This document shows positions 54,119-54,704 of a stretch of DNA of 64,000 nt, piece by piece; position 1 is the first letter of the stretch; each line of letters begins with the position of its first letter. The notes below the pieces were generated by a model. It searched no databases. It had not been told where the DNA came from and saw only the letters and a list, made by a program, of their open reading frames with translations. This stretch comes from an uncultured Chloroflexota bacterium (GTDB taxonomy: Bacteria > Chloroflexota > Dehalococcoidia > Lucifugimonadales > UBA1127): the NCBI GenBank assembly GCA_913045315.1, contig CAJWQJ010000001.1:62001-126000 (forward strand), given 5' to 3'. Position numbers and translations under genes: made by a program.

Positions 54119-54574
54119 TTAGGAATTTCTTTGGATAAATTCTAATGCTTCTTGAGAATGATCCTCAGGAGGAGACTCGTCTATTAAATGTTGAATGTGT
54201 CCGTCACTTCCTATTATGAAGGTAACTCTTTTATAAGATCCCCTTCTTTCATCATATACACCAAAGGCTTTTGCCATCTGATGAGCTGGAGCACCGGCAC
54301 CCATTTGAAACTCTACTCCGCAATGTTCTCCAAAAGCTTTTTGAGCGAAGTATAGATCTGCACTAGAAGCAATGATTTCAACATCTTGTTCTTTAAAGGA
54401 ACTATAGTTTTGTTGGAACCCAACAATTTCTCTTTCTCAGCCTCCTGTAAAAGCTGCTGGATAAAATGCTAATATAAATCTTTTTCCTAATAAGTCTTTA
54501 AGATGAATTTCTTCTCGACCTTGCCGAAAACTAACATCTGGAATAGCTGATCCTTTTTCTAAAAGTTCTTCCAT
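54119..54574 (-). CDS. Selenocysteine-containing peroxiredoxin (in-frame UGA at codon 46)
   Basis: From the ATG at 54574 (GGGAG site upstream) one frame runs for 151 residues with a single internal TGA at 54437-54439. Before it the sequence is IPDVSFRQGREEIHLKDLLG then ILAFYPAAFTGG. After it come EREIVGFQQNYSSFKEQDVE and RVTFIIGSDGHIQHLI, a complete AhpC/Bcp-type peroxiredoxin. The TGA falls exactly at the peroxidatic Cys of PxxxTxxC (here PAAFTGG-U). A hairpin with the bacterial SECIS pattern follows 10 nt later. The protein should reduce hydroperoxides with a selenolate nucleophile. A later Cys (EHCGV, residue ~86) could be a resolving residue. The alternative, a Cys-to-stop mutation or sequencing error, is less likely because of the exact position and hairpin. 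Confidence 0.85.
54410..54426 (-). promoter_or_regulatory. Candidate bacterial SECIS element
   Basis: In the mRNA a perfect 7-bp stem (UUGUUGG / CCAACAA) with apical loop GUU begins 10 nt after the UGA, so the loop is 17 nt from it with G as first loop base. This fits the published spacing and loop rule for SelB-binding hairpins. No selA, selB, selC or selD gene is seen in this window. Confidence 0.7.
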
Positions 54575-54704
54575 AAAACTATCTCCCATAAAATTTGATA
54601 ATTTTGATAATAAAGAAAATTCTTAATATTTTTGTTATTTTATATCACTATGAATTTAATACCAACAATTGTTTATTTTTTAATAGATATTGTTATTATA
54701 AAAG

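Follow-up and report, generated by a model that had tools for sequence, protein, structure and literature searches.

The window, a 64,000-nucleotide stretch of DNA from an uncultured Chloroflexota bacterium, contains a peroxiredoxin gene with an in-frame UGA at the codon for the reactive cysteine; very probably the product is an enzyme that destroys peroxide and has selenocysteine (Sec) in place of that cysteine. The proposal as a whole is held with high confidence: a single-domain peroxiredoxin, in which UGA46 would be read as Sec by way of SelB, tRNA-Sec and a downstream hairpin, would reduce peroxide, most simply with the participation of Cys85 and thioredoxin. The positions of the relevant features are collected in Table 1.

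Table 1 Features of the Sec-peroxiredoxin gene in the window.
Feature	Position	Strand	Details	Basis
Sec-peroxiredoxin gene	54119..54574	-	151 residues + stop; ATG 54574, stop codon 54121-54119	Frame, Pfam, homologues
In-frame UGA	54437..54439	-	Codon 46, peroxidatic position (FTGG-U)	Frame; homologue codons
Shine-Dalgarno-like GGGAG	54583..54587	-	8 nt upstream of ATG 54574	Read from sequence
Candidate resolving cysteine, Cys85 codon (TGC)	54320..54322	-	End of third main helix	Alignment; model
SECIS-like hairpin	54410..54426	-	7 bp, loop GUU, UGA-to-loop 17 nt	Rule test; synonymous recodings

The minus-strand frame is open over its full length when TGA is read as a residue, and codon 46 is its lone in-frame TGA. 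The initial annotation had described a single UGA at this codon with peroxiredoxin sequence on both sides, which is confirmed by the frame and by the alignment, in order, of the pieces flanking the TGA to positions 2-39 and 90-123 of the Pfam AhpC-TSA profile (PF00578). Each piece alone scores slightly below the gathering score of that profile (21.6 and 22.3 vs 26), while the whole protein matches it over residues 8-129 with 91.2 bits (E-value 6.3e-26) and also matches Redoxin (PF08534) with 57.8 bits (cut-off 26.6). The motif around codon 46 is YPAAFTGGU, i.e. PxxxTxxU, so that the UGA does stand, as had been claimed, in place of the peroxidatic Cys of PxxxTxxC. Ordinary genetic codes recover only the 61-residue C-terminal open reading frame that had been foreseen (54119-54304) and a 50-residue N-terminal one (54437-54589). 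The gene would thus be missed or split under ordinary annotation, and the spending of selenium on a peroxidase would be overlooked likewise. The position of the GGGAG sequence fits the start codon chosen in the initial annotation. A promoter scan returned 3 sites vs 3.5 expected and provided no promoter evidence. Six TGA-interrupted frames were listed in the window, and the peroxiredoxin was the sole one judged by eye to be real; the remaining five had, by eye only, the appearance of upstream extensions or chance frames.

Homologues were collected from related genomes and from a sample of the class. Among 147 relatives, 22 genomes gave 23 matches at ≤1e-15; 21 of these matches hold a TGA, one of them (L052) together with a TAA in the matched stretch, and two hold none. 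The class sample of 393 genomes gave 57 matches at ≤1e-20, of which 53 contain a TGA and four do not; the UGA peroxiredoxin therefore recurs across the class sample. Sequences for 30 of these 57 matches were taken into the locus set, to which a contig scan of genomes contributed 11 loci. After removal of L035, which is masked at the codon, and L003, which is misaligned and belongs to another family, 62 of the 64 loci examined were readable at the counterpart of codon 46 in the alignment. That codon is TGA in 48 loci and TGT or TGC in 14. Whether Cys occupies the UGA position in homologues had been named as a check on the initial annotation, and UGA or Cys was found there in all 62. Two of the 14 Cys loci, L025 and L064, are one sequence (69/69 sampled 50-mers in common); this Cys form, from a Lake Baikal relative, is 42-43% identical to the window protein. 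The closest relative, L058, is 57% identical and has TGA at the codon. Among viral contigs, 10 stretches fit a pattern and no relative is encoded in any of them.

When Sec and Cys were mapped onto a 62-row tree, at least 7 changes were required, 5 of them forced by well-supported branches, vs 12.9 in shuffles. The branch of the window protein is long (1.24), and its partner is L058 (support 96/78), within a fork of eight Sec rows. Sec and Cys forms together provide a natural series for testing why Sec is retained. The window's gene groups with those of genomes from other families in the class, and four of five same-family genomes hold a different UGA peroxiredoxin that is 33-36% identical and has no Cys at the Cys85 column (L047, L049, L050 and L051, from G004, G003, G001 and G005). 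This distribution suggests either that the gene was transferred or that ancient copies were lost in a patchy manner. Further afield, an Anaerolineales MAG (L032) and an Acidobacteria MAG (L034) encode AhpC-like peroxiredoxins in which TGA occupies the peroxidatic position (FTFV-U), and the SECIS-like hairpins behind these codons are strong (-11.2 and -11.7 kcal/mol, respectively).

Substitution rates show strong purifying selection on the codons past the UGA. Ka/Ks after the UGA was 0.00-0.15 in 16 of 17 close pairs, and in the 17th pair (the window gene vs L058) Ks was saturated. Such values would not be expected if the UGA were a real stop and the codons past it a dead remnant.

A 7-bp hairpin with a G-first loop had been proposed 10 nt downstream of the UGA, and it was found there. 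The structure, UUGUUGG-GUU-CCAACAA, starts 10 nt past the UGA, and its loop begins with G. In the published bacterial SECIS model, a stem of 4-16 bp carries a loop of 3-9 nt that has G at its first or second position and lies 16-37 nt from the UGA, and the minimum free energy is ≤ -7.5 kcal/mol (PMC13188914). The accompanying claim that the hairpin matches bacterial SECIS rules stood for the loop (3 nt), stem (7 bp), guanine (first position) and spacing (17 nt). In energy the hairpin by itself falls short, at -6.4 kcal/mol (-6.6 at 43 nt) vs the published -7.5, and a 54-nt stretch reaches -8.4 kcal/mol only because another, separate hairpin contributes. Of the 2663 UGA triplets in the window (both strands, any frame), 165 (6.2%) are followed by a contiguous stem of ≥7 pairs that satisfies the loop and spacing rules, and 43 (1.6%) by such a stem of ≥5 pairs with an energy of ≤ -5.6 kcal/mol. 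With 300 synonymous recodings as the null, the window hairpin gave p=0.003; a dinucleotide shuffle of its 43 nt, the less informative comparison, was not significant (z -0.50; 56/200 shuffles as good). The same 7-bp hairpin is present in L058, and its counterpart in L059 has 8 bp, including a G-U pair. The sole terminator-like site returned by a scan, on the plus strand, is this SECIS-like hairpin.

Across the family, the folding signal has a clear peak shortly past the UGA. When stretches of 45 nt that begin two codons past the UGA were folded, the mean z-score against synonymous recodings was -2.07 (sem 0.17) in 48 Sec genes, which share ancestry and are therefore not independent, and was 0.01 (sem 0.31) at the same offset in 13 Cys genes (L064 was dropped as a duplicate of L025), where the signal is absent. 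At eight more distant offsets tried, the Sec genes gave mean z-scores of -0.20 to -0.53. For the window gene by itself, z was -1.67 (offset two) and -1.87 (offset three). A test for a single contiguous stem was weaker in homologues, with p<0.1 in 12/48 Sec genes (4/18 + 8/30) and 0/14 Cys genes, probably because no bulges were allowed.

Presence of the sel genes in the same genome had been named beforehand as a test, and all four components were found in the draft assembly (1.45 Mb, 32 contigs, 89.4% complete). tRNA-Sec was identified by RF01852 (62 bits, cut-off 47) and by ARAGORN as a tRNA-SeC with anticodon UCA; SelB was identified as a 621-aa open reading frame (339.8 bits, cut-off 242), together with SelA (432.5 bits) and SelD (363.4 bits, cut-off 125). 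SelA and tRNA-Sec were each detected in 128/147 relatives, and the Sec trait is thus common in the order. Among the 20 relatives with the UGA form, 19 have SelA, 17 have tRNA-Sec and all 20 have at least one of the two; the two relatives with the Cys form have both. Because the machinery is near-universal among the relatives, its co-occurrence with the UGA form says little.

Several other redox genes and in-frame TGA codons were observed in the window's genome. SelD (L021, contig C3:12684-13604) has its own in-frame TGA within GG-U-AAK and belongs to the known family of Sec-containing selenophosphate synthetases. A second candidate selenoprotein (L003:1422-1947, minus strand; contig C2:123424-123744) carries an in-frame TGA in a UxxC motif, GHF-U-GIC, and a signal-peptide-like N-terminus; its best NCBIfam match is the SelL-related redox protein model (64.2 bits vs a cut-off of 120). 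A thioredoxin-like frame with a hydrophobic N-terminus (L089:1468-1983, minus strand; contig C1:187031-187315) contains an in-frame TGA in YSDM-U-IAC, also UxxC, and its Pfam thioredoxin match is weak and below the cut-off (E-value 7.5e-4). A Cys peroxiredoxin of 155 aa with the motif FTGACTEELC (L002:1495-1962, plus strand; contig C15) is ~28-30% identical to the Sec form. On contig C9, a thioredoxin gene (109 aa, WCMPC motif; L086:1489-1818) ends ~14 nt before the tRNA-Sec gene (L004:1501-1595) on the same strand.

In the proposed mechanism, the bacterial SECIS-type hairpin shortly past UGA46 would direct SelB and tRNA-Sec to insert selenocysteine at that codon. Hydrogen peroxide or an organic peroxide would be attacked by the selenolate, and the resulting selenenic acid would be resolved, most simply, by Cys85 to form an intramolecular selenenylsulfide, and thioredoxin would then reduce this bond. 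Sec insertion is presumed from the recoding signals and machinery described above, and the peroxidase activity and its use in peroxide defence from membership in the peroxiredoxin family. The candidate role of Cys85 comes from alignment and structure prediction. All 19 rows of an aligned subgroup, consisting of 18 UGA rows picked by motif and the Cys form L025, have Cys at this column. A predicted structure with Cys modelled at position 46 and based on a seven-row alignment (mean pLDDT 92.0, pTM 0.89) places residue 46 on helix 44-55 and Cys85 at the end of helix 75-85. A resolving Cys is reportedly located in the corresponding helix of Xylella PrxQ-beta. A thioredoxin with a WCMPC motif, the putative reductant, is encoded in the genome.

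Sec might instead be inserted into an enzyme of the 1-Cys type, in which Cys85 is structural or incidental and resolution of the selenenic acid falls directly to an external thiol. Sec rows outside the subgroup keep FTGGU with no Cys at the Cys85 column, and the Foldseek matches to the model, which comprise AhpC, Bcp and AhpE-type peroxiredoxins, include 4x1u (AhpE), a 1-Cys enzyme. Against this stand the conservation of Cys85 throughout the aligned subgroup, including the Cys form, its predicted position at the helix end and the resolving Cys said to occupy that helix in the Xylella protein. We regard a one-Sec enzyme as a serious possibility, at a little under even probability. Resolution by Cys85 remains the simplest scheme. 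An extended form of it, with an FTGGU subfamily in this class outside the curated NCBIfam models, a Sec46-Cys85 selenenylsulfide and a switch to a Cys/Cys pair on at least one occasion (the Baikal relative keeps Cys85), is advanced tentatively, as we lean slightly against its holding in full.

The remaining explanations are far less probable. The UGA could act as a regulated switch, such that translation would end after 45 N-terminal residues when selenium is lacking and the protein level would report selenium supply. This behavior follows from UGA recoding generally, and the Cys peroxiredoxin of the genome (FTGACTEELC) would be selenium-independent; but the same side effect attends every Sec gene and calls for no separate mechanism, which makes a dedicated switch improbable. 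Recurrent UGA or Cys at one codon, purifying selection, the folding signal and the machinery together make sequencing error, pseudogene formation and a general code change very unlikely. A TGA that is a damaged Cys codon, in a gene that is dead or misread, would need only one base of difference from TGT or TGC and could be reconciled with the long branch of the window protein. Nevertheless, 47 further loci among the 62 readable also carry TGA at this codon, the sequence behind it is constrained in 16 close pairs, the window's frame has no further stop and the Sec machinery is present, leaving this explanation with very little probability. Reassignment or general read-through of UGA to Trp, Cys or another residue has only the open frame itself in its favor and can be dismissed almost entirely, because TGA is the stop of 6/47 window frames of at least 200 codons (the ground on which a general code change was rejected), the genome encodes SelB and a tRNA-Sec with a UCA anticodon, and among the 62 readable loci the position alternates with Cys only.

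Sec peroxiredoxins with TxxU are an established bacterial selenoprotein family, to which the window protein belongs. Published descriptions report Sec within PxxxTxxU, an AhpC-TSA domain and widespread Cys homologues (PMC1088965, PMC1794560, PMC2398784, PMC13188914, PMC5029168), and the window protein resembles the members described from the Sargasso Sea, from GOS and from genome surveys (PF00578/COG1225) in both Sec position and domain. The GOS data contained 253 such sequences (PMC2398784), a 2016 survey counted 91 in 78 organisms (PMC5029168), and a 2026 review lists peroxiredoxin with PxxxTxxU, citing Sohling 2001 for Eubacterium acidaminophilum (PMC13188914). For Chloroflexi, a 2006 survey gave 3 selenoproteins in 3 families (PMC1794560). 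The window gene is therefore a further member rather than a new kind, and general knowledge of selenoproteins is unchanged by it. In the literature searched, no mention of an FTGGU subgroup by name and no match for selenoproteins in SAR202 were found; the surveys print only TxxU, so their sequences may well include FTGGU members.

Comparison with individual systems places the window protein apart from the families that have been modelled. PrxU of Eubacterium acidaminophilum (NF040737) is also a Sec peroxiredoxin and aligns to window residues 19-135, but the score of 60.3 bits is far below its cut-off of 270 and the model is 233 residues long vs 151, which points to another subfamily. The Prx-like selenoproteins, although likewise Trx-fold redox selenoproteins, carry UxxC rather than TxxU; L003 of the window's genome is a candidate member. 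Single-domain PrxQ/Bcp and AhpE proteins are alike in length and fold (TM-scores by query length of 0.89 for 5epf, 0.88 for 4x1u and 0.88 for 9a4d) but have Cys where the window protein has Sec, and the window protein scores below the PrxQ/Bcp cut-off (PRK09437, NF006960; 69.6 bits vs 140). It also falls below the AhpC equivalog (TIGR03137; 71.4 bits vs 272). Twelve NCBIfam models were touched in all, PrxU included, and the cut-off was reached in none, which argues for a subfamily separate from those modelled there. PrxQ of Corynebacterium glutamicum is described as having resolving Cys54 (PMC5811025), whereas the window protein has no Cys at that place, five residues past position 46. What may be mildly new relative to these systems is a subfamily with FTGGU in this class, lying under all NCBIfam cut-offs, and a Cys85 that may resolve Sec46.
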